Shown here piece by piece: positions 3,051-14,045 of a stretch of DNA of 14,286 nt. Position 1 is the stretch's first letter. Every line of letters starts with the position of its first letter. The position numbers were made by a program, and so were the translations under genes. Source of the stretch: Candidatus Omnitrophota bacterium (GTDB lineage: Bacteria > Hinthialibacterota > Hinthialibacteria > Hinthialibacterales > JAKPRU01); the NCBI GenBank assembly GCA_029570205.1, contig JAKQSI010000129.1, positions 1 to 14,286 on the forward strand. The letters run 5' to 3'. Below the pieces are notes generated by a model. The model ran no database searches, had not been told where the DNA came from, and saw only the letters and a program-made list of their open reading frames with translations.

Positions 3051-3677
3051 ATGAAAAACGCACGCGCGATCGAAATCTGTCGCCGTCTGAAAAAAGAATA
3101 CCCGGATATTCGCTGTCCTCTTAATTATTCGACTCCCCTGGAGTTGCTGATTGCTTCGATTCTCTCCGCTCAGTGTACGGATGAGCGGGTGAATAAAGTT
3201 ACTCCCGCCATTTTCAAGAAATATCGGACTGCAAAAGATTGGGCCAACGCTGACCCCGCTGTTCTTGAAGAGGAGATTAAATCCACCGGCTTCTATCGAA
3301 ACAAGGCCAAGGCCATTCGGAACTGCTGCGCGGAAATCGCCGAGCGATTCGGCGGGGAACTTCCACAATCCATGGAAGATCTCACCAGCCTTCCGGGTGT
3401 CGGACGAAAGACGGCGAATCTCCTGCGCGGGTATATTTTCGGTCAGCCTTCGATTGTAGTCGATACGCATTGCATCCGTGTCAGCGGAAGGCTGGGCCTG
3501 ACCACCCACAAAGACCCGGAGAAGATCGAGCAGGATTTGATTTCTTTGATTCCCTCGAAAGAGCGGACCGGCTTTTCGCATCGGCTGATTCATCATGGCC
3601 GGGTGGTTTGCCAGGCAAGAAAGCCGCGCTGTACAGGCTGCTGTCTTTTCGATCTCTGTCCTTTCCCCGAAAAGTAA
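3051..3677 (+). CDS. nth: endonuclease III, DNA glycosylase/AP lyase
   Basis: A 208-residue base-excision repair enzyme that removes oxidised pyrimidines and cleaves the abasic strand. It shows the helix-hairpin-helix LPGVGRKTAN (114-123) with catalytic Lys120, and the aspartate in VVDTH (Asp138). Both fall at the same numbers as in Escherichia coli Nth. The C-terminal iron-sulfur loop is complete: Cys187, Cys194, Cys197 and Cys203 in the C-x6-C-x2-C-x5-C pattern. The protein is therefore expected to be active. AGAGG at 3038-3042 lies 8 nt before ATG. It is 66 bp downstream of hom and 85 bp upstream of the ProRS-like gene on the same strand; no functional link is obvious beyond a possible shared transcript. 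Confidence 0.97.
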   Translation: MKNARAIEICRRLKKEYPDIRCPLNYSTPLELLIASILSAQCTDERVNKVTPAIFKKYRTAKDWANADPAVLEEEIKSTGFYRNKAKAIRNCCAEIAERFGGELPQSMEDLTSLPGVGRKTANLLRGYIFGQPSIVVDTHCIRVSGRLGLTTHKDPEKIEQDLISLIPSKERTGFSHRLIHHGRVVCQARKPRCTGCCLFDLCPFPEK

Positions 3678-3762: not shown

Positions 3763-5394
3763 ATGCTTCAATCCCGGTTGTATATTCCCACTCGCCGTGA
3801 GACGCCGCATGATACGGAGTCACGCGGACAATCGCTGTTGATTCGCGCGGGATTCATACGGCAGTTGCCGTCAGGAGTCAGGGCCTATCTTCCCATGGGG
3901 CAGATGGCACTTCGGAGACTTTGCGAACTGGCGAGGAAAGAACTTCAGGCAGTTGGGGCCATGGAAGTCCATGTTCCGCACGGCGAATTTGAGGAAATGC
4001 TGATCTCGCTGGTCGGCGGGGATTTGCGCTCCTATCGTGACCTTCCGAAGGTCTTTTTCGCGCGTCGCTCTTTGGAGGATGGGGAGTTTTTGGAAGTGTG
4101 TGGGTTTGAATGCAGGACGGAAAGCGCCCCCATCCCGACCTTTTCCGTAGAAGATTCCCCCACCCCGACCCTCCCCGTAAACGGGGAGGGAGAAGAAATC
4201 CCCCCGTTTACGGGGGGATATAGGGGGGTATTGCTCCCACCCTTCCGCCGGATATTCCACCGTCTCGGCTTGACCGTTATCGAGACAGGAGGACAGGGAA
4301 CTGCATGGGGATTTGTTGTGTGTTCCGAGCAGGGCGATGTGTTCGGGACATGCGCCGAGTGCGGATTCTCCATGCCCCTGGCAATGTTTCCGTTGACTGA
4401 TTCGGAAATGAACAACCGGGAATCGTCCACCCTGGAGAAAGTGCATACACCGGGGATGACCAGGGTGGAGCAGGTGACGCAGTTCCTGGGGTGTTCCGCC
4501 AACCAGTTGATTAAGACGATGATTTTCCAGGCGGGAGAGGAATGCGTTGCGGTGTTGTTGAGAGGCGATCACACCGTATCCGAAGAGAAACTGAGCGCGT
4601 ACCTGGGATACTCCGTGCAGCTGGCGACACCGGAGATGATCGAGCGTGTGACCGCCGCGCCGGTGGGATTTGCGGGGCCGGTGGGACTGGAAGGCATCCT
4701 GAAAATCGGCGACCGGTCGCTGAGAAACGCCGGGCCGTGCGTGACCGGCGCAAACGAAAGCGATTATCATTATCGCGGCGTGACCCTGGGGCGCGATTAT
4801 GAGGTGGATCGCTGGGCAGACCTGCGTGTCGCTCAAGTGGGGGATGTATGCGGGCGGTGCGGCATTGGGCGAGTCCAGGGCTGGAATGGGATCGAGATCG
4901 CAAGAGGTGGGGCTGTTCCCCCAGAAGTGATTGAGCGATTGGAGGCCTGGTACATGGATGAGAATAGCCTGCGTCATCCGCTGAGGGTTGAACGGTTCAA
5001 CGTGAATCTGAGCCGCCTGTTTCTTGCCCTTGCAGACCTCCATGCCGATGATCGCGGTGTGGTGTGGCCGATTGCAATTGCGCCCTTCGAAGTGCATGTT
5101 GTGGACCTGACACCATCGGATGAGGAGGTTCATCGGATTGCGTGTGAGTTGAGCGCGTGTCTGGAACAGCAGGGCTGGAGGGTGTTGCATGATGACCGCC
5201 CAAGCCGTCCGGGTGTGAAGTTCAAGGACGCCGACCTCTTGGGATTGCCCTACGCGGTTATTGTCGGCTCACGCTCTGTGCAAGAGGGGCTTGTGGAGGT
5301 AGAGCGCCGCACGGCACAGAAGAGGGAAAAGCTCCCTGTGAATGATGTTGCCGCGTTAATTCTCTCCTGGAGAAAAGAGGATCTCACTGAATAA
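3763..5394 (+). CDS. prolyl-tRNA synthetase-like protein with degenerate catalytic core
   Basis: A 543-residue protein recognisable end to end as a bacterial-type ProRS. The N-terminus (1-72) matches the start and motif 1 (RAGFIRQLPSGVRAYLP at 28-44). The stretch that normally runs from motif 1 to GPTHEE is missing by about 35 residues. Motif 2 (usual FRDE..R..REF) is not recognisable after LRSYRDLPKVFF (88-99). An insertion follows at about 121-158. Two cysteine pairs survive, CAECG (197-201) and CGRCG (363-367). The INS editing domain (about 226-345) keeps LLRGDH and a lysine at 276 where E. coli has editing Lys279. Motif 3 is reduced to RFNVNLSRL (411-419). The anticodon-binding domain (about 435-540, with DDRPSRPGVKFKDADLLGLP) looks intact. 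The frame is open upstream to 3595, but that part overlaps nth and has no homology, so ATG 3763 is chosen; its ribosome site is weak. Aminoacylation is unlikely; an editing or regulatory paralogue, or early decay, fits. Confidence 0.85.
   Translation: MLQSRLYIPTRRETPHDTESRGQSLLIRAGFIRQLPSGVRAYLPMGQMALRRLCELARKELQAVGAMEVHVPHGEFEEMLISLVGGDLRSYRDLPKVFFARRSLEDGEFLEVCGFECRTESAPIPTFSVEDSPTPTLPVNGEGEEIPPFTGGYRGVLLPPFRRIFHRLGLTVIETGGQGTAWGFVVCSEQGDVFGTCAECGFSMPLAMFPLTDSEMNNRESSTLEKVHTPGMTRVEQVTQFLGCSANQLIKTMIFQAGEECVAVLLRGDHTVSEEKLSAYLGYSVQLATPEMIERVTAAPVGFAGPVGLEGILKIGDRSLRNAGPCVTGANESDYHYRGVTLGRDYEVDRWADLRVAQVGDVCGRCGIGRVQGWNGIEIARGGAVPPEVIERLEAWYMDENSLRHPLRVERFNVNLSRLFLALADLHADDRGVVWPIAIAPFEVHVVDLTPSDEEVHRIACELSACLEQQGWRVLHDDRPSRPGVKFKDADLLGLPYAVIVGSRSVQEGLVEVERRTAQKREKLPVNDVAALILSWRKEDLTE
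4127..4236. repeat. palindromic repeat block inserted in frame in the ProRS-like gene
   Basis: About 110 bp unlike the rest of the gene. It starts with two similar 30-bp units in tandem (CCCCCATCCCGACC at 4127 and CCCCCACCCCGACC at 4157). Two hairpins follow: CCCTCCCCGT/ACGGGGAGGG (4169-4178 with 4181-4190) and TCCCCCCGT/ACGGGGGGA (4199-4207 with 4210-4218), then a GGGGGG run. The second hairpin with its tail resembles the element at 7582-7616, read on the other strand. It encodes roughly residues 121-158 without a stop or frameshift, where ProRS alignments have no counterpart. Exact edges are uncertain by about 10 bp. Confidence 0.75.
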
Positions 5395-5518: not shown

Positions 5519-5526
5519 AAATGAAG

Positions 5527-6141
5527 ATGAACGAACGTCATGAACAAGAGGAAGATCGGTCCGAATGCCGACAGCCTGAGGAATGGGAGGCGATATTGAA
5601 AGATGTTACTGTCCCGCGCGATTACAGGGAAATCCCATTTGATCCCCAGATGCTGCCTTTCATCCAGGAACGCTATCAAATGCCGGAGCTGGTCAATATC
5701 GCCGACCGGGAGGAGGCGAACCTTGTGCTGGATCGAGATGTCGAGCGGCTTCGTCGCGCCATCGACCGGAAGTTGCATGGCCGAATGAAAATCTGCATGT
5801 TGCTGTCGGCGCTGACCGGTTGGTCGAACCGTCGGATTGCGGCGGTTCTGGGGTATTCCAAAGACACCGTGCGTCGGGATTTGGATGAGGGGGTAAAGAT
5901 TCTCAAGACCTATTTTCGCGAATCGGAGGAACGGACGTTCCCCCGGTTCCATCGGTCTCGAAAGGTACTGCGTGCGGGGATTTTTCCGCTTGATACGGAC
6001 CGGGAGCGCAGCGTGTTTCAGCAATTCGTCAATGACAATGTCATCCTGCACCTGGCGTACAGCGGCGGGGACGATTTCCGCGAGGCCATGGTGATTTATC
6101 TGCCGTCCGCTCCGGCAGAAAAATCAGGGGTCCAGCAATAG
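5527..6141 (+). CDS. sigma-region-4-like helix-turn-helix protein, function unknown
   Basis: A 204-residue protein, soluble and rich in charged residues. Residues 92-122 (LSALTGWSNRRIAAVLGYSK and following) read like the helix-turn-helix of sigma-70 region 4 or LuxR-type regulators, with the usual I-A..LG.S...TV..L pattern. The N-terminal 90 residues are acidic and unlike sigma region 2, so it is not an obvious sigma factor. The C-terminal part (about 130-195) matches nothing I recognise. An in-frame ATG at 5521 would add two residues, but the ribosome site favours 5527. It stands alone behind a good sigma-54 promoter and converges with the glycosidase gene. It is likely a DNA-binding regulator; the target is unknown. 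Confidence 0.8.
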   Translation: MNERHEQEEDRSECRQPEEWEAILKDVTVPRDYREIPFDPQMLPFIQERYQMPELVNIADREEANLVLDRDVERLRRAIDRKLHGRMKICMLLSALTGWSNRRIAAVLGYSKDTVRRDLDEGVKILKTYFRESEERTFPRFHRSRKVLRAGIFPLDTDRERSVFQQFVNDNVILHLAYSGGDDFREAMVIYLPSAPAEKSGVQQ

Positions 6142-10132: not shown

Positions 10133-12619
10133 ATGGAAGTACATGTAAATCTGCGCATCAACGAACTTCGGGAAGCGGGGGACTGGCCTGGAGTGGAACA
10201 ACTTTCACGAGACATCTTGAATCGGACGCCGGAGGATGTGTTCGCCTTGCGTGCATTCTCCCAGGCGCTGGAGCAGCAATCCAAAACCGATGAATTGCCG
10301 AAAATCTGGCGGAAGCTGGCCGACCTGGAGGATCGCCCCGGTCCCGTGGAGAAGGCGCTTGCCGCCCATTACCTCCAACAGGACAAGAAAGAATCGGCGG
10401 TGCAATGGTATCGGCGCGCATTGGAGTCGTTTGTGCGGGCGCGGGATGACTCGCAGATCGAAGAGATCTGGCTGGAACTCTGCGAGCTGGACCCCTCGGA
10501 CCTGGAGTGGTTTTTGTCGATTTCAGACCGTGTTGCCGGGTCGCGACGGAAGGAGCAGGCCTCGATTCTCTTGCAGATGCTGGTTCCTTATTATGAGAAA
10601 AATGAGCAGTGGGAGGATGTGCTGACGATTCTTCGTCGCGCGGCGACGTTGACCCCGCAGGATATCGGTATCCGTGATAGCGTTATCAAGGCGCTGCGGG
10701 CACGTTACGCCGGCGCGGTTGCCCTTGAACATGTTCTCGACCACTGCGGAATGCGTCAGACCGGCTCCATTCTGGAATCCCTCCAGCAGGCCGAACGCCT
10801 CATCCCATATTCCGATGGAGAAGCCTGTTATCACCCCGATTGGGGTGTGGGATTGGTGAAGAAACTGGACCTGTTTTCGGAACGGGTCACCATCGACTTT
10901 GAGCGGAAAAAGAATCACGAAATCACGGTGGACCTGGCGCAGGAAATTCTGGAACCGCTGCATCACCGGGATATTCGAGCCGCCTGGGTACGCGAACCGG
11001 AGCGTGTGAGTCGGCTGGTTGAGGAAGACCCGGCGGAGATTGTCAGAATGGCGCTCATCCGCTGCGGGCGGAAAGCGACTGCCGGTGAGTTGAAACAACG
11101 CCTGTGCGGTTCGGTCATCCCCGAAAAAAAGTGGTCGCGATGGTGGGCAAGCGCAACCGCCGCAGTCAAGAAAGATCCGTTTATCAGCCTTTCGGGAAGT
11201 ACCTCCAAAGCGTATATCCTTCGCAAAGAACCACGCAGCGCCGAAGAAGAATGGATGGAGAGTTTCGAGAAGAAACGGAATCCCATCGAGAAGATCGACC
11301 TGGTTCTGTCTTATCTTCGGAATACGAAGCCATCCAACTATTCCGTCGAGTTGCTGCGCCGTTTCTCTCTCATGCTTTTTGCGCTGGCAAAAGAACGTCG
11401 GAATCCCGCCGTTCGCCTGGAAATCTACCTGACCCTGGAAGACCTGAACCGATGCGAGCCTTCTATCGGCGGGCCGGCAGAGTCGACGTGGGATGAGATT
11501 CTGGCCGGTCCTTCCGAATCGGTGGACCTCCTGCTGCAACTGGCGTACCCGGATCACCAGTGGCGGATGTGGGAACGGCTGCGCGAGAGATATCCCGATG
11601 CGTGGAGGGAGATTTGCGGAACGCTGATACTTTCCCATCAATCCCTGATCCGTGATCGCCTGGCGGAATGGCTTCGGGCCGAACGCCATGAGGCTATTCT
11701 CTCCGACCTTGCGAAGAAAGTGGCTCTCGAACCACGGGAATACCCCGAAGCGTTTGCATGGTTCTCCGACCAGGTTTTATTGGGCAACCGGCAGGATGTT
11801 TCGATGGGGATTGATGCTCCTGTGCTGTTTGAACGATTGCTGATGCTGGTCGATTTCCTTAATGATCGCGCCAAGCGGGTAGAGAAAACCGAGGCGGCGA
11901 TATTGCGGGCGTCCGCCGCACAGGTTCGCAGTGTGCTCAAGAAAGATGATTTCGCGATTCTCGACAAAATCCTTCCGAATATCGATCGTTCTGTGGCGTT
12001 GTCACTGTACAAGCGGGCCAACCTGAACAGCGGCCTGGATGTTGGAGCGCGCGAGAAAATCACCCGCCGGATTCTGGCGCGGTTTCCGGGATTGCTCGGC
12101 TCTCTGGAGACCGGGTCCGATGCGGCGGAGTTCCTCTGTACTTATCCGGCTTACGAAGCGCGCCGGAAGCGGTTGCAGCAGATCATCGAGCAGGAACTCC
12201 CGCGCGTGACCGATCAGATTGAGGAGGCCCGCAAACACGGCGACCTGAGCGAGAACGCCGAATATCACGCCGCGAAAGACAAGCAGAAAACCCTGTACGG
12301 AGAGGCAGCGGACCTGCGGGATCAACTCCAACTTGCGCGTCCCACAGACCTTTCCAGGATTGTGCCCGATGAAGTGAAATTCGGCGTGAAAGTGCGCATA
12401 ACCAATTCCGAGGGTGAAGGGAAAGTGTACACCGTGCTGGGGCCGTGGGAGTCGATTCCCGAACAGGATATTTTATCTTATCAGGCCCCGTTTATGCGAG
12501 CATTCCTGGGCAAGAAAACAGGAGATATTGTAGAGATTGACCTGCCCAGTCGGAAAGGAATCTTTACCGTCCAGGAAATCGAACCCATTCCCGCCGAACT
12601 CTACTCGCTTCCGAATTGA
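10133..12619 (+). CDS. greA: GreA transcription elongation factor fused to a long helical N-terminal region
   Basis: An 828-residue protein. Residues 677-828 form a complete GreA: coiled coil with the tip motif DLSENAEY (704-711, acidic Asp704 and Glu707 that bind the catalytic metal in RNA polymerase) and the C-terminal FKBP-like domain. GreA rescues backtracked polymerase by stimulating transcript cleavage. The usual GreA is about 158 residues. The extra 676 residues are mostly helical, with TPR-like pairs at about 10-200. At about 226-277 is a segment (ACYHPDWGVGLVKKL) resembling a small CarD/Tudor-like barrel, and at about 290-365 a helical module with WSRWWASATAAVKKDP (334-349). Long-extension GreA proteins are known in Chlamydiae and Spirochaetes. 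GGTGA (10122-10126) lies 6 nt before ATG. Mosaic repeats flank the gene on both sides. Confidence 0.9.
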   Translation: MEVHVNLRINELREAGDWPGVEQLSRDILNRTPEDVFALRAFSQALEQQSKTDELPKIWRKLADLEDRPGPVEKALAAHYLQQDKKESAVQWYRRALESFVRARDDSQIEEIWLELCELDPSDLEWFLSISDRVAGSRRKEQASILLQMLVPYYEKNEQWEDVLTILRRAATLTPQDIGIRDSVIKALRARYAGAVALEHVLDHCGMRQTGSILESLQQAERLIPYSDGEACYHPDWGVGLVKKLDLFSERVTIDFERKKNHEITVDLAQEILEPLHHRDIRAAWVREPERVSRLVEEDPAEIVRMALIRCGRKATAGELKQRLCGSVIPEKKWSRWWASATAAVKKDPFISLSGSTSKAYILRKEPRSAEEEWMESFEKKRNPIEKIDLVLSYLRNTKPSNYSVELLRRFSLMLFALAKERRNPAVRLEIYLTLEDLNRCEPSIGGPAESTWDEILAGPSESVDLLLQLAYPDHQWRMWERLRERYPDAWREICGTLILSHQSLIRDRLAEWLRAERHEAILSDLAKKVALEPREYPEAFAWFSDQVLLGNRQDVSMGIDAPVLFERLLMLVDFLNDRAKRVEKTEAAILRASAAQVRSVLKKDDFAILDKILPNIDRSVALSLYKRANLNSGLDVGAREKITRRILARFPGLLGSLETGSDAAEFLCTYPAYEARRKRLQQIIEQELPRVTDQIEEARKHGDLSENAEYHAAKDKQKTLYGEAADLRDQLQLARPTDLSRIVPDEVKFGVKVRITNSEGEGKVYTVLGPWESIPEQDILSYQAPFMRAFLGKKTGDIVEIDLPSRKGIFTVQEIEPIPAELYSLPN

Positions 12620-12908: not shown

Positions 12909-14045
12909 CTACAGGTTTGTATCTAACGGAGCCGCGCTGTCCAAACCGGAGCGGTCCAGCTGGAACGGCCCCACAGGAGGGGTGCTTTCCTCCGCAACGG
13001 CTAACTGCATGGCCGCCTGCTTGAACAGCGGCAGGCGCGCGCCCGCCTGGAAATGCAGACGAGTTATCACTCGCCCGTGCCGATAATCATATTCCACCAT
13101 TTCGACTACCTGCCGACATAATGAATCGACTACCGGAAAGGGCGGATGATCGAACCGGACAGCATCCCCCGCTCTCGCATAAAAGAAACCGGCCATATCG
13201 AGAGCGCGTTGCGTTGCCGGTTGGGTAACCAGAGGCAGAATCGCGTTCTTGAGCAGTTCGGCATCGGCCTCCGAGGTGATCGCGCGGATATAGAGGTGTT
13301 TCGTCCGAAGCCCGAACGTGCGAATCGAATCCGGAGAAGTAAATGTTGTACGAAACTCCGCGCCGGAGGGTGGCGTTACGCCGCCATGGAGGACAAAGGC
13401 GTTTTTGATGTCGTCATCGGTTCGCCACAGGTTCAAGGTCATCAGGTCGGGATCGAATCGAACGCGATGATTCGGCGCGACTGTGCGCGAGCGATAGCGC
13501 AGAACCGAATCCCACGAAATATCCCACAGCGCATTGTGATCCAGGATCGCAAGCAGGCTTATGACATCGAACAGACCCGTGTTGACAAAACCGAGGCGGT
13601 CGATGATCCGAGGCGACTCTGTTTCCACGGAGTAACCCAGGTGGGGTACAGGTGTACGACTCAGGATATCTATCAGAATATCGGTGATCGACTGATTCTC
13701 ATAAACAGCGGTGACGGAATGCGGAAAGAGACGCGGCGGCTCCCGTTTGGCGAGGATGGTCAGCGGCGCTTCTACAGAATCCAACCGGATATGGCTAACC
13801 TGTCCGCGAAACACAAGAATCCGATTGATGAACACCTCGATTTGTCTACCGAAGTCCAGCGGAACATCCAGGTCCTCGCGATGCAGTTCAATCCACGCCT
13901 TTGCGGTCATCTGGCGGAAAGGGGATCTCACCAGGACACTTCGGGGATTGAATACCCGTGCGGCGAGTGTGCCGGAATCGCCGTAGATTCGCACTTCAAT
14001 GTCGCAGGATGGTGCGGGAATGGGGTTGCGATCCGAATTTGCCAT
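12909..14045 (-). CDS. phage/contractile-injection baseplate hub-like protein (tentative)
   Basis: A 378-residue soluble protein without signal peptide or membrane segment. The first half has beta-rich patterns reminiscent of tail hub (gpD/gp27-like) proteins: LDFGRQIEVFINRILVFRGQ (63-82) followed by LTILAKRE (95-102), then YENQSITDILIDIL (115-128), as in hub proteins where a loaded beta barrel precedes a 'tail-attachment' helix. The C-terminal 40 residues are low in structure. No other tail, capsid, lysis or integrase gene lies in the window, so this may be the edge of a prophage or injection system continuing to the left of its start (beyond 14286), or an orphan domesticated gene. The family assignment rests on pattern memory only; the gene itself is convincing. 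Its 3' end is 22 bp from mosaic repeat copy 2. Confidence 0.5.
   Translation of the reverse strand: MANSDRNPIPAPSCDIEVRIYGDSGTLAARVFNPRSVLVRSPFRQMTAKAWIELHREDLDVPLDFGRQIEVFINRILVFRGQVSHIRLDSVEAPLTILAKREPPRLFPHSVTAVYENQSITDILIDILSRTPVPHLGYSVETESPRIIDRLGFVNTGLFDVISLLAILDHNALWDISWDSVLRYRSRTVAPNHRVRFDPDLMTLNLWRTDDDIKNAFVLHGGVTPPSGAEFRTTFTSPDSIRTFGLRTKHLYIRAITSEADAELLKNAILPLVTQPATQRALDMAGFFYARAGDAVRFDHPPFPVVDSLCRQVVEMVEYDYRHGRVITRLHFQAGARLPLFKQAAMQLAVAEESTPPVGPFQLDRSGLDSAAPLDTNL

Follow-up and report, generated by a model that had tools for sequence, protein, structure and literature searches.

A degenerate bacterial-type prolyl-tRNA synthetase, predicted to edit in trans, in a Candidatus Omnitrophota bacterium and two congeners

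Locus and gene layout

The window is a 14,286-nt stretch of contig JAKQSI010000129.1 from a Candidatus Omnitrophota bacterium (assembly GCA_029570205.1; genome G000 below). It carries an open frame of 543 codons and a stop at 3763–5394 (+), without interruption, as the first-pass annotation of the window had stated. Sequence comparison identifies the product as a bacterial-type prolyl-tRNA synthetase (ProRS) by descent, and its closest solved structure is 2J3L (E. faecalis ProRS, E 7e-75). In profile searches it falls below the curated cut-offs expected of an active bacterial-type ProRS, with 318 bits to NF006625 (cut-off 558) and 233 bits to TIGR00409 (cut-off 306.7). Pfam matches above cut-off are tRNA_edit (PF04073) at aa 230–342 (E 5e-19) and HGTP_anticodon (PF03129) at aa 444–534 (E 3e-19); no Pfam match to the class II core, tRNA-synt_2b, was found in the 543-aa protein. 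The AlphaFold model has a mean pLDDT of 42.8 because it was built with only five sequences, and it is uninformative. The gene and its parts are as follows.

3051–3677 (+): nth, endonuclease III-like (Pfam HhH-GPD); lies next to the gene on its upstream side, same strand, in both G000 and G001
3763–5394 (+): degenerate bacterial-type ProRS, predicted trans-editing factor (open frame, Pfam and profile scores; orthologues in G002, 91%, and G001, 80%)
3763–3978 (+): N-terminal core with class II motif 1 (dimer interface), aa 1–72, ending at invariant P72; 11 of 17 invariant columns kept
3979–3993 (+): site of a deletion of about 34 residues, aa 73–77, which takes out most of GPTHEE together with the residues preceding it; 1 of 11 columns kept, 9 deleted
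4060–4251 (+): destroyed motif 2 region, aa ~100–163, including an in-frame insert at aa 116–163; 0 of 20 columns kept, insert dN/dS ~0.9
4157–4230 (+): within the insert, core of a palindromic repeat that is dispersed through the genome (inverted repeat; 47 matching stretches)
4351–4362 (+): first Cys pair, C197-x-x-C200, putative Zn ligands (alignment; invariant in all three orthologues)
4429–4797 (+): INS editing domain, aa 223–345 (PF04073, 5e-19); 17 of 17 columns, dN/dS ~0.11 against G001
4849–4860 (+): second Cys pair, C363-x-x-C366 (alignment with canonical ProRS and orthologues)
4888–5016 (+): ruined GIEVGHxFxLGTKYS segment and motif 3 (VERFNVNLSR), aa 376–418; 4 of 11 and 0 of 6 columns kept
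5083–5391 (+): anticodon-binding domain (ABD, HGTP_anticodon), aa 441–543 (PF03129, 3e-19); 14 of 14 columns, dN/dS ~0.1

In each of the three congeners the gene immediately downstream (5521–6141, +, in the window) encodes a 206-aa protein that weakly matches a helix-turn-helix.

Lost motifs, retained domains and selection

Invariant columns were defined as those at least 95% identical among 27 canonical bacterial ProRS, and were counted as kept if present in all three degenerate proteins, that is, the window protein and its orthologues in two congeneric genomes. Overall, 66 of 127 columns are kept. The aminoacylation motifs retain just 5 of 48 (motif 2, 0/20; motif 3, 0/6; GPTHEE and the preceding stretch, 1/11; GIEVGH..KYS, 4/11), whereas the INS (17/17), the Zn linker (3/3) and the ABD (14/14) retain all 34, and the N-terminal core with motif 1 retains 11 of 17. 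Given 66 of 127 overall, the probability is ~4e-14 for the losses in the aminoacylation motifs and ~8e-13 for full retention in INS, Zn linker and ABD. The split between lost and retained columns is not due to chance.

The lesions are largely as first described from the sequence. Alignment with canonical ProRS places the loss of about 34 residues after P72, with the GPT of GPTHEE among them and 9 of 11 columns deleted; the earlier reading was that GPTHEE and about 35 preceding residues were missing. Motif 2, called unrecognisable, is replaced. The reported reduction of motif 3 to RFNVNLSRL also holds: canonical MGCYGIGVSR reads VERFNVNLSR in the window protein, and the motif-3 glycines are lost. 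Two of the three orthologues retain the motif-3 Arg; G002 has His instead. GxGGSxSHEF and GIEVGHxFxLGTKYS are ruined as well. No equivalents remain of E. coli K-12 ProS T109 (the GPTHEE Thr), R140 and R144, the last two belonging to motif 2. GPTHEE and the class II motifs 2 and 3, which mark an active ProRS, are thus absent from the protein, and both INS and ABD are present. The two CxxC pairs (C197/C200 and C363/C366) and the ABD, both described earlier as preserved, are indeed intact.

The editing residues D350 and H369 of E. coli ProRS correspond to D317 and H336 in the window protein. INS pocket residues I263 and L266 of the E. coli enzyme correspond to V235 and V238, positions at which canonical ProRS often or usually have V. 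The editing lysine of E. coli ProRS is K279, and the K279A enzyme is editing-defective (PMC3973320). Its equivalent is K251. The first-pass annotation was right that the INS is intact and wrong in placing the editing lysine at Lys276, which aligns with E. coli K308. K251, D317 and H336 are conserved in all three orthologues, so that the tRNA_edit domain carries the conserved lysine and active-site residues of an INS-superfamily editor.

The orthologues in G002 (91% identical) and G001 (80% identical) are full-length and stop-free, and have identical lesions. The lesions therefore predate the radiation of the genus, and an assembly or frameshift artefact is ruled out. Against G001, the more distant congener, whole-protein dN/dS is 0.20 (0.16–0.25), with values of 0.13 for aa 1–115, 0.115 for the INS and 0.098 for the ABD. 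The neighbour nth, used as a control, gives 0.095. The active ProRS gives lower values (0.02–0.05), and the higher 0.20 of the whole degenerate protein counts against the trans-editing reading proposed below. The frame is free of stops in all three species, with dS reaching 0.59. When the observed number of substitutions was placed at random in a neutral simulation, the frame stayed open in 1% of trials between the two closest species, and in none of 2000 for either remaining pair. The copies evolve under purifying selection, and the simple pseudogene named in the first-pass annotation as a refuting outcome is not what was found. The evidence base is three species, represented by MAGs that are 90–94% complete. 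Beyond these congeners, no degenerate form was found among 386 genomes at E 1e-75; the other matches, none above 327 bits, came from full-length ProRS frames.

In a phylogenetic tree the three degenerate proteins group with canonical ProRS of the same order (support 98/91), which are their nearest relatives, on a very long stem branch of 2.8 changes per site. This grouping is consistent with vertical descent followed by displacement. In canonical relatives proS adjoins ribF, and follows rseP in two of three loci examined. The window's genome has ribF with neither gene beside it, and gene order therefore speaks neither for nor against orthology.

Partner synthetase and proposed role

A second proS, which the first-pass annotation had proposed to search for, is present in the same genome. 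It is an archaeal/eukaryal-type ProRS of 476 aa, on C51 of G000, that scores 602 bits to TIGR00408 (cut-off 437), and both congeners encode one as well, at ~600 bits. These family-I enzymes are intact and catalytically complete, with PF00587, PF03129 and PF09180, and have no INS. The degenerate protein as sole ProRS of the genome is ruled out. Six same-order relatives encode canonical bacterial ProRS without the archaeal/eukaryal type. Of the genomes examined, G065, unrelated and assembled as a single contig, carries both types, its bacterial type with all motifs intact (loci C1:3769400–3771800, L115, and C1:4112324–4113742, L109). A two-enzyme intermediate is therefore plausible.

The sole PF04073 match in each of the three congeners is the INS of the degenerate protein; the PF04073 search found no YbaK homologue in their genomes. 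A free-standing editor could have been missed through MAG incompleteness in one genome, but this is unlikely in all three. Two other families of the class have a free-standing PF04073 protein instead. Of 29 further genomes that encode an archaeal/eukaryal-type ProRS, 17 lack any PF04073 protein, so that this ProRS type alone demands no INS-family editor and the idea that it always needs one is false. For this reason the sole-PF04073 pattern is suggestive, but not compelling, as a sign of an editing gap filled by the degenerate protein.

Our preferred reading is that a retired bacterial-type ProRS was kept as a stand-alone trans-editor after an archaeal/eukaryal-type ProRS displaced its aminoacylation role, and we regard this as probable. 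The lineage would have gained the archaeal/eukaryal-type enzyme, which lacks an editing domain, and the vertically inherited bacterial-type ProRS would then have lost its aminoacylation site. The ABD would select tRNA-Pro by its anticodon, dimerisation would probably still occur through motif 1, and the INS would hydrolyse mischarged tRNA-Pro, most likely Ala-tRNA-Pro released by the new ProRS. As a trans-editor would, the degenerate protein has no working aminoacylation site attached to its INS and coexists with another ProRS. Support at the sequence level comes from the loss of the motifs, the retention of INS, ABD and N-terminal core under purifying selection, the co-occurring ProRS of the other type, the lack of any other PF04073 protein in the three congeners, and the grouping in the tree.

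By itself, the INS of E. coli ProRS is not specific for any tRNA; it depends on the ABD to read anticodon bases G35/G36, and acceptor-stem changes matter little to its editing (PMC3973320). This dependence would explain why INS and ABD were retained together. Retention of both, with loss of the motif-2 loop that reads the acceptor stem, matches the needs of an anticodon-guided editor, which favours an Ala-tRNA-Pro trans-editor. The first-pass annotation had proposed a full-length inactive ProRS acting as a trans-editing or tRNA-sensing factor. The data support this proposal, and its trans-editing half gains from the sole PF04073 match, the kept editing residues and the need of the INS for the ABD (PMC3973320).

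Its other half, a tRNA-Pro-binding regulator or sensor, is unlikely. Here the ABD would bind (uncharged) tRNA-Pro and signal or sequester, and the INS would be merely structural or bind the 3' end. Conservation of the ABD and motif-1 region would suit such a protein, as would the helix-turn-helix protein encoded downstream on the same strand (5521–6141), and synthetase paralogues in other roles are known, such as HisZ and YadB (PMC7373986). However, all known INS hydrolysis residues are present, with dN/dS as low there as in the ABD; a mere binder need not retain K251, D317 and H336, and the protein has no signalling domain.

A trans-editor with a substrate other than Ala-tRNA-Pro, either Cys-tRNA-Pro or another mischarged tRNA, is doubtful. 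Pockets of the INS family vary in amino-acid preference and the superfamily has many specificities (PMC11295145), and with no YbaK homologue in these genomes, Cys-tRNA-Pro would otherwise go unedited. Yet the domain derives from the Ala-specific INS of ProRS, and V235 and V238 (E. coli I263 and L266) are residues frequent or usual in canonical ProRS. Aminoacylation through a remodelled active site, or a subunit role with another ProRS, is highly improbable: the N-terminal core and motif 1 are kept, as is the motif-3 Arg in two of three proteins, but the Arg140 and Arg144 equivalents, the GPTHEE Thr, SHEF and the motif-3 glycines are all lost, that Arg is His in G002, and a different type of ProRS, itself complete, is also encoded. 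A decaying pseudogene still open by luck would account for the large deletion, the repeat-derived insert and the long stem branch, but can be ruled out with near certainty by the stop-free frames of three species, whole-protein dN/dS of 0.20 and ~0.1 in INS and ABD, the simulated rarity of frame retention, and lesions shared since before the genus radiated.

The trans-editor favoured here was compared with known systems. It shares descent, domain order, INS, ABD, CxxC pairs and editing residues with bacterial (P-type) ProRS that carry an INS (TIGR00409/NF006625; E. coli ProS; 2J3L), and differs from them in its destroyed aminoacylation motifs and its scores (318 bits where the cut-off is 558, and 233 where it is 307). 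In principle its nearest precedent is ThrRS-ed of some Archaea, a ThrRS that is truncated, has no catalytic site and performs editing in trans (PMC9976931, PMC7373986). Both have lost the catalytic site, kept editing and anticodon domains, and coexist with a separate active synthetase (PMC7373986, PMC9976931, PMC11295145). The likeness to such a retired synthetase is by analogy only: ThrRS-ed belongs to another synthetase and another domain of life, its editing domain is not homologous, and the active partner here is a different ProRS type rather than a truncated sister. ProXp-ala, which trans-edits Ala-tRNA-Pro where ProRS lacks an INS, has a homologous editing fold and conserved lysine (K45). 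It is a single domain that reads acceptor-stem G72/A73 (PMC3973320, PMC10164551), whereas the degenerate ProRS has an ABD and core remnant and is predicted to recognise the anticodon. YbaK and other free-standing INS-superfamily deacylases share PF04073 and the free-standing role but are single-domain proteins. According to a review, all INS-superfamily members except ProRS are single-domain (PMC11295145); the protein described here, at 543 aa with core remnant and ABD, is not.

No report of a ProRS counterpart of ThrRS-ed was found in the literature searched, with most subscription journals outside its reach. We think it reasonably likely, if a little less so than the trans-editing role, that this is the first ProRS-derived, anticodon-reading trans-editor, a full-size synthetase stripped of aminoacylation and retained only to proofread the product of the ProRS that displaced it. 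If so, proofreading can be selected separately when a synthetase is displaced and can persist after synthesis is lost, in a trans-editor that brings its own means of reading the tRNA. Published work leaves open how the distant INS site is informed of anticodon binding (PMC3973320). For this question the protein would provide a natural separation-of-function mutant, because a shuttle from the aminoacylation site cannot exist here. For annotation, a long, conserved, ProRS-like gene need not encode a ligase.

Insert, repeats and other features of the window

The first-pass annotation had overlooked that the motif-2 region contains an insert carrying a dispersed palindromic repeat with dozens of genomic copies. 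The insert is in frame and comprises 48 residues (aa 116–163). Its core, ~4157–4230, has perfect 14-nt arms at 4173–4186 and 4202–4215. A search with region 4096–4262 gave 47 matching stretches across the window's genome. The insert is common to all three congeners and is therefore older than their split. Its dN/dS is ~0.9 (0.77–1.07), nearly neutral, unlike that of its flanks. Copies of the REP-like repeat elsewhere in G000 include C128:29257–29353 and C117:15017–15088; the copy at 4157–4230 is read in frame within a conserved protein.

Further downstream, a 378-aa open frame lies at 12909–14045 (−), with no Pfam match at E 0.001. A gene at 10133–12619 (+), present in G001 too, encodes an 828-aa protein in which an N-terminal TPR-like part is fused to a complete C-terminal GreA/GreB (PF03449 and PF01272). 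It is flanked by two pairs of direct repeats, 9973–10024/12770–12821 (52 nt, 81%) and 10040–10085/12663–12708 (46 nt, 93%).
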